From Bacteroidota bacterium (GTDB lineage Bacteria; Bacteroidota; Bacteroidia; M30B66), in assembly GCA_027490225.1 (NCBI GenBank), contig JAIXYK010000024.1, forward strand, positions 1 to 50,839: a stretch of DNA of 50,839 nucleotides, read 5' to 3'. Position numbers and translations under genes: made by a program. Under the pieces are notes generated by a model. The model was not told the DNA's origin and made no database searches. It saw nothing but the letters and a program-made list of their open reading frames with translations. Below are positions 42,101 to 46,021 of the stretch, piece by piece; position 1 is the stretch's first letter, and every line of letters begins with the position of its first letter.

Positions 42101-42949
42101 TTATGAAGGGAAGAAACGCTTTAATAGCAATGCTAAAGCGAAGATAACACCTATCATTACAGCTATACTTCCAGATACAGATGCATTTAAAACAACAGCT
42201 AAAAAGTATCCAAAAATGCTCGATAGCACTCCAATTGATGCTGCAATAGCAATCATCCAAGGTAAACGTTTTGCAAAAAGTGCGGCAGTGGCTGCTGGGC
42301 CAACAAGAAAAGCAATCACCATAATGGCACCAACAGATTCAAAAGAAACCACCGTGGCCAAAGAAACCATTCCCATTAATACATAGTGCCAGAGCATAAC
42401 GGAAACTCCCAAGGTTGAGGCATAACCTGCATCAAAAGTGGTGAGGTACAAACCTCTGTAACCAATTCGAAGAATCACCAACAAAATCAATAACATTCCA
42501 CCAGCTATCCAAACCTGACGAGGGCCAAGCAATAAACCAGAATCTAAGGTTATGGTATCAAATGGAACGAATGCAATTTCTCCATACAAGACACATTCCT
42601 GGTCTAAATCTGTTTGTCCGGCAAAAAGCGAAATCAAAATAACACCTACTGCAAAAAGAAACGTGTAAGTAATTCCAATGGCAGCATCGTTTTGCACCCG
42701 CATTTTTTTTTGGATAAACTCAATGATGAATGTTACAAGCAACCCTGTTATTGCTGCACCCAATAGCAAAACACTGCTGGCCCTTGAACCACTAATTAGA
42801 TAAGCAACCACTAATCCAGGTAAAACGGCATGTGAAATGGCATCACCAAACATGGCCATTCTTCTTAATACTAAAAAACAACCTGGAATGGCACAACATA
42901 ATGCCACCAAACTCGCAGTGAGTATTATCCAGAAATCGTTGATGCTCAT
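42101..42949 (-). CDS. Metal ABC transporter permease (TroD/ZnuB-like)
   Basis: A 282-residue membrane protein of the ABC-3 permease family with about eight to nine helices. RRMAMFGDAISHAVLPGLVVAY near the N-terminus and the VSFESVGAIMVIAFLVGPAATA segment (equivalent to the TP-A region of manganese and zinc permeases) are conserved. It overlaps the end of the MntR-fused permease gene by 4 bp. It should form the membrane channel with that permease. Confidence 0.9.
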   Translation of the reverse strand: MSINDFWIILTASLVALCCAIPGCFLVLRRMAMFGDAISHAVLPGLVVAYLISGSRASSVLLLGAAITGLLVTFIIEFIQKKMRVQNDAAIGITYTFLFAVGVILISLFAGQTDLDQECVLYGEIAFVPFDTITLDSGLLLGPRQVWIAGGMLLILLVILRIGYRGLYLTTFDAGYASTLGVSVMLWHYVLMGMVSLATVVSFESVGAIMVIAFLVGPAATAALFAKRLPWMIAIAASIGVLSSIFGYFLAVVLNASVSGSIAVMIGVIFALALLLKRFFPS

Positions 42950-44238
42950 ATTGCTGGAGGAATTTTAGTATTGTGAGGATCAGTTTGAGGATTTCCTAAA
43001 AGCGCATCCAATTGCGCTTCTATTTCAGGTGTAATAACGTGTTCCATTGCTTCGGCATCGTCGTGCACATGGTCGGGATTAAGGTGAAGGTACTTCTGCA
43101 GATACAATTCCCATAATCTATGCAGCCTCACTACACGTTGGGCTGCAATAAGCCCTTCGGGAGTGAGTTGCCAAGTTTGCAGCACGTCATTAACATAACC
43201 TTTCTTTTGGAGAATTTTCAAGCCTTTTGATAGTTGAGAAGGATCGAAAGAACGGGCATTGTTTAAATCTTCCTTAATAATTGCCCCATTTGGATTTCCT
43301 GTCTTCTCGCCCAACCCATAAAACAATTTCAAAATGTTTTCTTCTAAAGTAATTCTGTTATTATTTCGGGTTTCTCGCCATCTATTTAAATATCCTCTTT
43401 TGGGAGCAAAAACCATTGAAATAATAGCCATAAAAGTGGCCATTACAACAATCCAAGGCCCTGTAGGCATGGCTGGTGCGGTGTAAGAAATAAAAGCGCC
43501 AGTATACCCAGAAAGTAAACCAATAAAAACTGCTATAATTAGCATTTTTATAATGGAATCTGTCCACATCCGTGCAGCCAATGCTGGAGTAATGAGCAAT
43601 GCAGCCATCAAAACAACACCAACGGCCTGAATTCCGATTGCCACTGACCAAACCGTAATAAATGCTAATATAAATCTTAATCGTTTTACTGGAAAGCCAA
43701 TTGATTGAGCATAATTTTCATCAAAAGACAAAACGGTGAAACCTCTTAAAAAAACAATAATACCTCCAACAATAAAAATGGATGATATGGCAAAAAGTAG
43801 CACATCATCTTTGGTAATGGAAGCAGCTTTTCCGAAAAGAAATTTATCTAAACCTGCTTGTCCTGCATTGCCACTATGCTGAATAGATGTTAATAAAACG
43901 ATGCCCAAACCAAAAAAAACGGAAAGTAATAAAGCAATAGCTGTATCAGGCCGGGTTTTGTTGTTTCTTCCTAACCATTCCATAATAACAAGACTAGCTA
44001 AGCCAGTAATAATAGCACCAATAAGAAAATACAATGGATTTTTCTCACCAGTTAATATAAATGCCAAGCAGACACCTGGAAGCACACTGTGAGAAACGGC
44101 ATCTCCAACTAATGCTCTTTTGCGTAAGAATGTAAAACAGCCAACCAAAGCAGCCATTCCACATAAAATTAACGTTCCCATTACCACTAAGATGATATTG
44201 GGTTCTGTTAAAAATATAAACTCACGCAGGTTATTCAT
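42946..44238 (-). CDS. Metal ABC transporter permease fused to a C-terminal DtxR/MntR-like domain
   Basis: A 430-residue fusion. Residues 1-285 are an ABC-3 permease (RKRALVGDAVSHSVLPGVCLAF; GVVLMAALLITPALAARMW). Residues about 300-430 match a DtxR/MntR repressor without its extreme N-terminus: a winged helix (LSKGLKILQKKGYVNDV, LTPEGLIAAQ) and a metal-binding/dimerisation part with His373, Glu396, Glu399 and His400 in HRLWELYL and HDDAEAMEHVI, ending LDALLGNPQTDPHNTKIPP. Glu396 stands where DtxR has Cys102 and MntR has Glu, which favours manganese. Helix-1 ligands of MntR are not both conserved. The domain may sense metal at the transporter; DNA binding is uncertain. Confidence 0.88.
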   Translation of the reverse strand: MNNLREFIFLTEPNIILVVMGTLILCGMAALVGCFTFLRKRALVGDAVSHSVLPGVCLAFILTGEKNPLYFLIGAIITGLASLVIMEWLGRNNKTRPDTAIALLLSVFFGLGIVLLTSIQHSGNAGQAGLDKFLFGKAASITKDDVLLFAISSIFIVGGIIVFLRGFTVLSFDENYAQSIGFPVKRLRFILAFITVWSVAIGIQAVGVVLMAALLITPALAARMWTDSIIKMLIIAVFIGLLSGYTGAFISYTAPAMPTGPWIVVMATFMAIISMVFAPKRGYLNRWRETRNNNRITLEENILKLFYGLGEKTGNPNGAIIKEDLNNARSFDPSQLSKGLKILQKKGYVNDVLQTWQLTPEGLIAAQRVVRLHRLWELYLQKYLHLNPDHVHDDAEAMEHVITPEIEAQLDALLGNPQTDPHNTKIPPAI

Positions 44239-44239
44239 T

Positions 44240-45028
44240 TTATGCTTCTCTCACAGGAAAATTTCTTTCTCTTAATTGGTCTCCAACCTGACTCAAAACG
44301 GTAAGCTTTCCGCTATAAGTTGATTTTAGCAATTCTTCTGTAAACACTTCAGAGGTTGGTCCGCTTGCAATTAAAGAAGCATTCAATAAAACTAGCCAGT
44401 CGAAATACTCTTTGGCAGTATGTAAATCGTGGTGTACAACCACAATTGTTTTGCCTTCGCTTTTCATTTGTTGTAACAAAGCAATTATGGCTTGTTCAGT
44501 TGCCGCATCAACACCCACAAAAGGTTCATCTAATAGGTATAATTCTGCTTGTTGAGCCAATGCTCTTGCAATAAAAACACGTTGTTGCTGCCCTCCTGAA
44601 AGTTGAGAAATTTGACGATTTACAAAGCCACCTAAATTTACCTTTTCTAATGCACTTGCTGCTAATACCTTGTCTTCTTGTGTAATTTTTCCAAAAAGTC
44701 CTCTTTGCTGGTAGCGGCCCATCAAAACAACATCCTGAACAGTAGCAGGAAAATCCCAATCAACCGTTTGTCGTTGTGGTATGTAACTTACCTTTTGCCT
44801 TACTTCATCAAAAGATTTTCCGAAGATTTTAGCATATCCGCTATTTACAGGAACCAACCCTAAAATGGCTTTAATGAGCGATGATTTCCCCGCTCCATTT
44901 GGACCCATTATTCCAATAATTTGCCCTTTAGGTAGCGTAAAATCAATATTCCACAGGACTGGTTTTCTATGATAAATAACAGTGAGGTTATGCGCTTCTA
45001 TAGAAGGATTCTCAGTTTGAATAATCAT
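44240..45028 (-). CDS. Metal ABC transporter ATP-binding protein (TroB/MntB-like)
   Basis: A 262-residue ATPase. Walker A GPNGAGKSS, Q-loop YIPQRQTVDWDFP (typical of manganese and zinc importers), signature LSGGQQQR, Walker B LYLLDEPFVGVD and switch His in VVVHHDLHTAKEYF are all present. It lies 6 bp after the binding-protein gene and 1 bp before the fused permease gene, so it is part of one operon. Confidence 0.93.
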   Translation of the reverse strand: MIIQTENPSIEAHNLTVIYHRKPVLWNIDFTLPKGQIIGIMGPNGAGKSSLIKAILGLVPVNSGYAKIFGKSFDEVRQKVSYIPQRQTVDWDFPATVQDVVLMGRYQQRGLFGKITQEDKVLAASALEKVNLGGFVNRQISQLSGGQQQRVFIARALAQQAELYLLDEPFVGVDAATEQAIIALLQQMKSEGKTIVVVHHDLHTAKEYFDWLVLLNASLIASGPTSEVFTEELLKSTYSGKLTVLSQVGDQLRERNFPVREA

Positions 45029-45034
45029 TTGCTC

Positions 45035-45958
45035 TTATTTAAGTGCATTAACAATTGTTTGCGTATTGTGGCGCAACATTCCTTTGTATGTGCCTACAGG
45101 AGAGCTTTTGGGACCCATTGCATCAGAATATAAACTTCCACCAATATTTATGTTATAGCCTTTTGATTTGCAACCTTCAATAACCGCCTGCAATGATTTT
45201 GAAGAAATGGAACTTTCAATAAAAACCGATTTTATTTTACGACTAATGATAAAATTAACCATGTTGCTCACATCTTGTAAACCATATTCAGAAACTGTAC
45301 TGATTCCTTGCAAACCTTTAACTTCAATACCGTAGGCTAAACCATAATACCTGAAAGCATCATGTGAGGTGATTAACACGCGTTGTGACTTTGGTATGCT
45401 TCCAATGGCCAATTCAATTTCAAAACTTACTTTTTCGAGTGTGTCTTTGTAAGTTTTAAAATTTCCAGCTATAAAAGCTGCTTTATTGGGAAGTAATTTC
45501 TGTAAAGTATCCGACAGTCCGTTTACACCTAGTTTCCATGATTCTATGTCCATCCAAAGGTGTGGGTCAATCGCTCCTTTGCCATCATCAGAACGTTGCA
45601 ATCTGTTTTCCCAGATGTATTCTGCTAAAGGAATAACAGGTTTGGTTTTTCCGATTTTGTGCAAAACTTCTATCATTTTACCTTCTAAATGATGACCGCT
45701 GTAAACTATAATGTCTGCATTAGCGAGCAAATTCATATCGCCTTGAGAAGCTTTGTAAAGGTGAGGATCTACTCCTGGGCCCATTAAAGTTTTTAATTCA
45801 ACTTGGTCTCCTAAAAGATTTTCAATGGCATCGGCAACCATGCCTGTGGTTGCGACAATTTTTGGTCTTTCGGAGATTTCGGCTTGTTTGCTTGGTGTGC
45901 ATGAAATTGCAAATGAAACAGCAATAATTGCACATAAATAATAGCTAAGTTTCTGCAT
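45035..45958 (-). CDS. Metal-binding lipoprotein of a Mn/Zn ABC importer (TroA-like)
   Basis: A 307-residue lipoprotein with Cys20 in FAISC. The four metal ligands of TroA-type cluster A-I binding proteins are seen: His66 (GVDPHLYK), His133 (DPHLWMD), His199 (ITSHDAFRYYG) and Asp279 (YSDAMG). The third ligand is His, as in TroA, rather than the Glu of PsaA-type manganese proteins. VKGLQGISTVSEYG is also TroA-like. TroA carries Mn2+ or Zn2+. The operon starts here with a promoter and palindrome immediately upstream. Confidence 0.92.
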   Translation of the reverse strand: MQKLSYYLCAIIAVSFAISCTPSKQAEISERPKIVATTGMVADAIENLLGDQVELKTLMGPGVDPHLYKASQGDMNLLANADIIVYSGHHLEGKMIEVLHKIGKTKPVIPLAEYIWENRLQRSDDGKGAIDPHLWMDIESWKLGVNGLSDTLQKLLPNKAAFIAGNFKTYKDTLEKVSFEIELAIGSIPKSQRVLITSHDAFRYYGLAYGIEVKGLQGISTVSEYGLQDVSNMVNFIISRKIKSVFIESSISSKSLQAVIEGCKSKGYNINIGGSLYSDAMGPKSSPVGTYKGMLRHNTQTIVNALK

Positions 45959-46003: not shown

Positions 46004-46021
46004 AATTAGGCAAGCCTAATT
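46004..46021. promoter_or_regulatory. Candidate DtxR/MntR-family operator
   Basis: aattaggc-aa-gcctaatt is a perfect 18-bp palindrome 6 bp upstream of the -33 element of the metal importer promoter. Its TTAGGC...GCCTAA halves resemble known DtxR/IdeR/TroR-type operators (TTAGG..CCTAA). Confidence 0.68.

Follow-up and report, generated by a model that had tools for sequence, protein, structure and literature searches.

Why would a metal importer carry, fused to one of its own permeases, a sensor of the kind found in transcription factors, and what might that sensor do there? The question is raised by a four-gene metal-import operon on the minus strand of the window, by which we mean the whole stretch of DNA that was analysed (50,839 nucleotides, from a Bacteroidota bacterium). 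The operon begins with a ZnuA/TroA-type substrate-binding protein of 307 amino acids (45035..45958, PF01297) and continues with an ABC ATPase of 262 amino acids (44240..45028, PF00005), the permease-sensor fusion of 430 amino acids (42946..44238, with the stop inside these coordinates) and a second ABC-3 permease of 282 amino acids that has no sensor domain (42101..42949, PF00950). A palindrome, TTAGGCAAGCCTAA (on the minus strand, TTAGGCTTGCCTAA), lies at 46006..46019, about 60 bases ahead of the start of the substrate-binding-protein gene. A promoter scan of the window added nothing to this picture, and NCBIfam does not assign a metal, as none of the operon proteins has an above-cut-off match among the matches listed.

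The fusion itself is real. Open reading frame, Pfam domains, AlphaFold2 model and PDB matches all agree with the preliminary description, which had also placed the gene correctly. The first part of the protein (residues 1-282, 43393..44238) is a PsaC-like ABC-3 permease domain, with PF00950 found at residues 15-277 (1.8e-67, 228 bits) and so across the whole permease, and the genes of the binding protein, the ATPase and the second permease adjoin it as they should for an importer of this type. Next come a connecting helix and a winged-helix fold (residues 283-358, 43165..43392). The last part is the Fe_dep_repr_C metal-binding and dimerisation domain (residues 359-427, 42958..43164), which matches PF02742 with 3e-25 and 88.4 bits against a cut-off of 27. 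The Pfam search did not find PF01325, the DNA-binding domain of DtxR, in the window's fusion protein. A permease and a DtxR-type domain in one open reading frame is the architecture of YtgCR, and because eight of the ten genomes that we examined from the host's family have the same fusion (one of the eight genes is partial, at a contig end), it is far beyond chance.

We modelled the fusion as a monomer with AlphaFold2 from a 60-row alignment, which gave a mean pLDDT of 91.9 and a pTM of 0.85. Residues 3-298 of the model are closest to PsaC of the PsaBC transporter of Streptococcus pneumoniae (Z 36.3, rmsd 2.8 A over 283 residues, 31% identity), the closest solved permease. The solved PsaBC permease chain has 290 residues and, unlike the fusion here, no C-terminal sensor domain. 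Residues from about 292 to 430 match repressors of the DtxR family with Z up to 17.4 and an rmsd of 2.2 A over 135 residues, and DR2539 matches this part with 38% identity and a Z of 17.1. Residues 283-430 thus form the whole DtxR fold, with both its winged-helix and its dimerisation domain. A single long helix (283-313), modelled with high pLDDT, leads from the permease into this sensor; there is no flexible linker between them, a continuity that would speak against proteolytic release of the sensor.

The ligand set of the sensor is N301, H373, E377, H392, E396, E399, H400, D420 and H422, with N301 in the preceding helix. We aligned 109 non-redundant fused domains with a match to the metal-domain profile alongside 74 free domains. 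H373, E377, E399 and H400 are invariant in all of them, and the other ligands are kept in most of the 109 fused domains (H392 in 106, E396 in 98 with D in 11, D420 in 105, H422 in 104; at position 301, 80 have N, 16 have H and 13 have D), though part of this conservation is built in, since a match to the metal-domain profile was how the rows were picked and HRLWE was part of one search pattern. Tails without a metal-domain match (L157, L162-L167, L181 and L135) are outside the 109. The preliminary description had named His373, Glu396, Glu399 and His400, all of them correctly placed; its list missed Glu377, His392, Asp420 and His422, which are near-invariant too. It had also read the Glu at the position of DtxR Cys102 as the manganese choice of MntR. 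The Glu is there (E396) and is compatible with the argument for Mn, but it does not settle the metal, which could be Mn, Fe or Zn. The binuclear Mn site of Bacillus subtilis MntR, made up of Asp8, Glu11, His77, Glu99, Glu102 and His103, is not reproduced in the fusion: Asp8 becomes N301 and Glu11 becomes K304, and the other four are present. For PgMntR of Porphyromonas gingivalis, the published description gives predicted ligands that include His85, Glu89, His104, Glu111, His112, Asp132 and His134. In the alignment, the fused ligand set covers the primary and further sites described there for PgMntR and its relatives. We infer that the fused domain binds metal.

The winged helix is a different matter. 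It had been described as kept, and this holds for the fold; the surface through which such a fold contacts DNA is unconserved across the fused family. We compared 32 non-redundant loci that have both a fused and a free protein. For the recognition helix, identity averaged over pairs is 0.19 among the fused proteins versus 0.51 among the free ones, and for the wing it is 0.11 versus 0.50, whereas the metal domain minus its ligands gives 0.51 versus 0.57. The ratio of helix identity to metal-domain identity is therefore 0.38 in the fused set (bootstrap 0.32-0.43) and 0.90 in the free set (0.83-0.98). The matching by locus answers a sampling bias, as our free set is mostly Bacteroidota and the fused set covers more phyla; in free Bacteroidota regulators the recognition helix and wing are conserved, and in fused ones they are not. 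Profiles tell the same story. All 35 free genes score above the PF01325 cut-off and none of the 32 fused genes does (32 genomes, positions matched by eye); six of the 32 fused genes give weak matches of 15-22 bits. A profile of the free helix-turn-helix (HTH), which was built from the free rows themselves, has a median score of 4.7 bits on fused and 91.7 bits on free proteins. When the HTH of the window's fusion was searched alone, it matched zero PDB chains at E<=10, while the HTH of the free paralogue matches SloR, DR2539 and MntR. One natural fusion, L043, lacks helix 2 of the HTH and keeps every ligand in the alignment. In its model (pLDDT 92.5) the connecting helix is followed directly by one short helix and the wing, and the fused domain of L042 is likewise shortened.

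What the fused helices do have is charge, on average +2.68 versus +1.53 in the free ones, and a helix this positive may still allow some binding to nucleic acid or membrane. The fused family also has conserved residues of its own (H390, Y379, R368, T403, E405 and E407) that are mostly missing in free regulators; H390, for example, is present in 88% of fused and 0% of free domains. We are fairly confident that the fused domain is not the main DNA-binding repressor of the operon.

There is a better candidate for that task in the same genome. The preliminary description found no MntR gene in the operon, which is true of the operon in the window; it also proposed to check the genome for a free MntR, and one is there on another contig (C33). 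The host genome has one other PF02742 protein and a single PF01325 match, and both are this free DtxR/MntR gene, which has PF01325, PF02742 and FeoA domains. We accordingly rejected the idea that the fused domain is the only candidate regulator of the operon. The free gene carries the box of the operon. The pattern TTAGGN4CCTAA occurs seven times in the 3.77 Mb genome, against five for a reversed control pattern. Five of the seven copies are inside open reading frames, and the two intergenic ones are upstream of this operon and upstream of the free DtxR/MntR gene; on these counts we rejected the box as a common genomic motif. The free gene is divergent from an open reading frame of 761 amino acids, with a shared box between them (L001:1-1260, L046:910-3192). 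Judged by eye from its sequence, the 761-residue product looks like a TonB-dependent receptor, and it may be an outer-membrane receptor for metal that belongs to this regulon.

Of 75 scored fused operons, 48 have the shorter pattern TTAGN6CTAA ahead of their first gene, compared with 53 of 4000 random windows of equal length. These counts leave unscored 21 of the 96 fused loci, where there was no substrate-binding protein found or a contig end, and omit L052-L081, which have short flanks and are in many cases repeats of other loci. Sorted by operon type, the operons with the box are 31 of 40 headed by the free DtxR gene, 15 of 23 headed by the binding-protein gene and 2 of 12 in which the free gene has another place in the locus. 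All three operons that have the free regulator first and a permease without a metal domain carry it as well, and this distribution indicates that the box goes with the free regulator. Across all free genes, 60 of 97 have a box within 260 bases upstream. We found none upstream of the free gene in five other genomes of the host's family (L029, L047, L048, L049 and L050), although in those genomes four fused operons do have it (L033, L034, L036 and L037), so a box on the free gene is shown in the host genome but in none of these relatives. What supports the box is the pair of genome-wide and family-wide scans: within the window alone, a longer pattern with two mismatches allowed gave one match where 1.22 were expected, which is not significant. 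The palindrome at 46006..46019 is likely the operator of the free DtxR/MntR on the other contig. The preliminary description had said that its proposal would fall if DNA-binding residues were lost or if a separate MntR controlled the operon alone. Both points have largely come true, with a DNA-reading surface that is unconserved and a separate DtxR/MntR whose gene carries the operon's box and which could, but need not, control the operon alone.

This arrangement is not peculiar to the host. With a full-length profile at E<=1e-60, 74 of 392 genomes of the phylum had a match, and in 32 of these the match spans the whole fusion. A free DtxR is present in 29 of the 32 genomes, upstream on the same strand and within about 4 kb in 22 and elsewhere in the genome in seven. 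At the level of loci, a free DtxR is within the locus in 41 of 70 fused loci from named genomes, and in 40 of the 60 that have at least 3.5 kb of upstream sequence. The titles of the records with fusions include Bacteroidetes, Balneolales, Verrucomicrobia, Planctomycetota, Omnitrophota, Sumerlaeota and Latescibacterota. In a tree of the metal domain, 46 fused rows fall together to the same side of a weakly supported branch (56/87, from 70 columns, with the bootstrap unsettled), which is compatible with a single origin of the fused domains.

The remaining three of the 32 genomes have the fusion without a free DtxR, and all are from one genus. Their loci, L168-L170, come from genomes of about 2.3 Mb and hold a lone fusion with its ligands kept. 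In these we found no free DtxR in the genome, no recognised importer genes adjoining the fusion and no box near its start. The fusion could be the regulator itself in these three genomes.

We believe that the fused DtxR-fold domain sets the transport activity of the importer according to metal, and we give this reading a probability of about 0.58. Among the things we observed (the fold, the ligands, the unconserved DNA-reading surface, the free paralogue, the shared box and the co-occurrence across the phylum), the retained ligands and fold, the lost DNA-reading surface, the attachment by a helix and the free repressor alongside are best explained if the domain is the importer's own sensor. 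The C-terminal 148 residues would be the DtxR-fold sensor of a former transcription factor, now serving the importer as a regulatory domain in the cytosol, with primary and ancillary ligands and the dimerisation domain retained and one long helix tying it to the permease. As cytosolic Mn(II) or Fe(II) rises, metal would occupy the sensor site, and the filled domain would shift its pairing or packing. The altered sensor would then slow the ABC cycle, a feedback or trans-inhibition as in MetNI and ModBC, which use other folds for it. Transcription would be a separate matter, in the hands of the free DtxR/MntR acting at the TTAGGN4CCTAA box. The effect on transport and its direction as feedback are the parts that we infer. 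Of the two roles that the preliminary description had offered, a metal-dependent gate and a membrane-tethered repressor, the gate is now favoured, and a tethered repressor of the operon is unsupported. One point sits awkwardly with a dimeric switch. In 74 of 96 loci the domain is missing from the second permease, and a heterodimer of two such permeases would have a single sensor (13 loci have a single fused permease, three have the domain on both, counting L134 as reclassified, and six were left unassigned). The positive charge of the fused helix also tells against this reading.

The repressor idea deserves a fuller hearing, because it has a precedent. If the domain works as in Chlamydia, then in its metal-loaded form, either tethered at the membrane or released by proteolysis, it would bind the operon's box. 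A review reports that Chlamydia YtgC-YtgR is cleaved into an iron-dependent repressor, which represses its own operon with iron, and that orthologous fusions exist in 11 phyla. The complete two-domain fold would suit this, as would a non-acidic recognition helix, and in three genomes the fusion is the one PF02742 protein present. We nevertheless think it unlikely here: the box is conserved but the fused helix and wing are not, no fused gene reaches the PF01325 cut-off, L043 has lost an HTH helix, the free regulator is mostly in the same operon, the model has no flexible linker, and the fusion-only loci are without a box near the fusion's start.

Two further readings keep the domain at the transporter without making it a switch of transport. 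It might be a passive metal acceptor or an assembly module, one that takes metal at the permease exit or joins transporters together. Near-invariant ligands and a dimerisation fold would suit that as well, and the permeases of one lineage carry a winged-helix-like tail alone, so some role of the tail needs no metal. The ligands of two sites (H373/E377/H392/D420/H422 and E396/E399/H400) would exceed what an acceptor needs, and we regard this reading as rather improbable. Alternatively, the domain could pair with the free DtxR/MntR through the retained dimerisation domain, holding the regulator at the membrane or releasing it according to metal or transport state. Transporters that sequester regulators at the membrane are known in principle, and in 22 of 29 genomes the fused gene has the free one as its neighbour. 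Yet the residues conserved in fused domains alone suggest self-pairing or contact with the permease or ATPase, and the fusion persists in three genomes that have no free partner; we hold this to be very improbable. We return below to the importer's own sensor, the reading that we prefer.

Permease-DtxR fusions are already known, and to call their role unsettled, as the preliminary description did, was incomplete in view of the reports on Chlamydia. YtgCR (CT069, of the ytgABCD operon) shares with our fusion a ZnuA/TroA-type metal ABC permease with a C-terminal DtxR-like domain, and YtgR is reported to be a DNA-binding repressor and called the only identified iron-dependent regulator in Chlamydia. 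The fusion here differs from that system, as the latter is described, in that a free DtxR/MntR coexists with it and its DNA-reading surface is unconserved. A fusion as the sole DtxR-type regulator of its genome, as in Chlamydia, is not the situation here, given a free DtxR in 29 of 32 genomes. The free Mn/Fe repressors DR2539 of Deinococcus, SloR, ScaR and PgMntR have the same winged-helix and dimerisation fold with similar primary and secondary ligands; here the fold is fused to a permease, its PF01325 region goes unrecognised and its recognition helix is unconserved. MetNI, ModBC and OpuA, as they are described, are ABC importers too, and in them an extra cytosolic domain governs activity. 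In ModC a dimeric domain is reported to bind the transported oxyanion, and OpuA to use a positively charged HTH near the membrane. Those domains are on the ATPase, have other folds and an effect that has been measured, whereas ours is on the permease and its effect is a proposed one. Our searches of the open-access literature returned no role for the fused domain outside Chlamydia. As far as these searches show, what is new, in the genomes examined, is the evidence that the fused copy usually stands beside a free regulator and has not retained the DNA-reading surface of the family.

If the importer's own sensor is the right reading, a repressor family would have found a second life as the allosteric domain of metal pumps, and fast feedback at the protein level would run alongside slow control of the gene. 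It would also correct an extrapolation, as the role of permease-DtxR fusions has so far been argued from Chlamydia alone. Fused and free sensors occur in one operon in culturable bacteria such as Pontibacter and Algoriphagus, which makes the prediction sharp and cheap to test. In its widest form, the proposal is of an ancient family that uses one sensor fold at two levels in Bacteroidota, Balneolales, Verrucomicrobia, Planctomycetes and several other lineages: the free DtxR/MntR would read DNA and the fused copy would be the metal brake of the importer, with the cleaved Chlamydia repressor a special case and not the model for 11 phyla. We consider the arguments for and against this wider proposal to be evenly balanced.

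Several loci depart from the common layout. Both permeases carry a metal-sensor domain in L132 (5992-8596), L140 (5950-8527) and L134, so that a single transporter would have two sensors; in the first permease of L132 and L140, HVD replaces HVH and the DPH motif is missing. In L162-L167, L181 and L157 both permeases have a winged-helix-like C-terminal tail of about 90 residues and no metal domain, and for two such proteins that were scanned, Pfam gives permease families alone. L135 (5983-7332, from Brevibacillus reuszeri) has a degenerate sensor tail in which His373 is replaced by Gln, and Pfam again finds the permease alone. In L045 (3058-5091, genome G059), an open reading frame of 678 amino acids combines a full DtxR-FeoA regulator with NHL repeats and a Por secretion tail, and this is possibly a frame or assembly accident. 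Finally, in L039 (2858-4621) and L042 (2551-4260) the substrate-binding protein and the ATPase are in one open reading frame (588 and 570 amino acids) that adjoins a single permease-sensor fusion, giving an import system of two genes.
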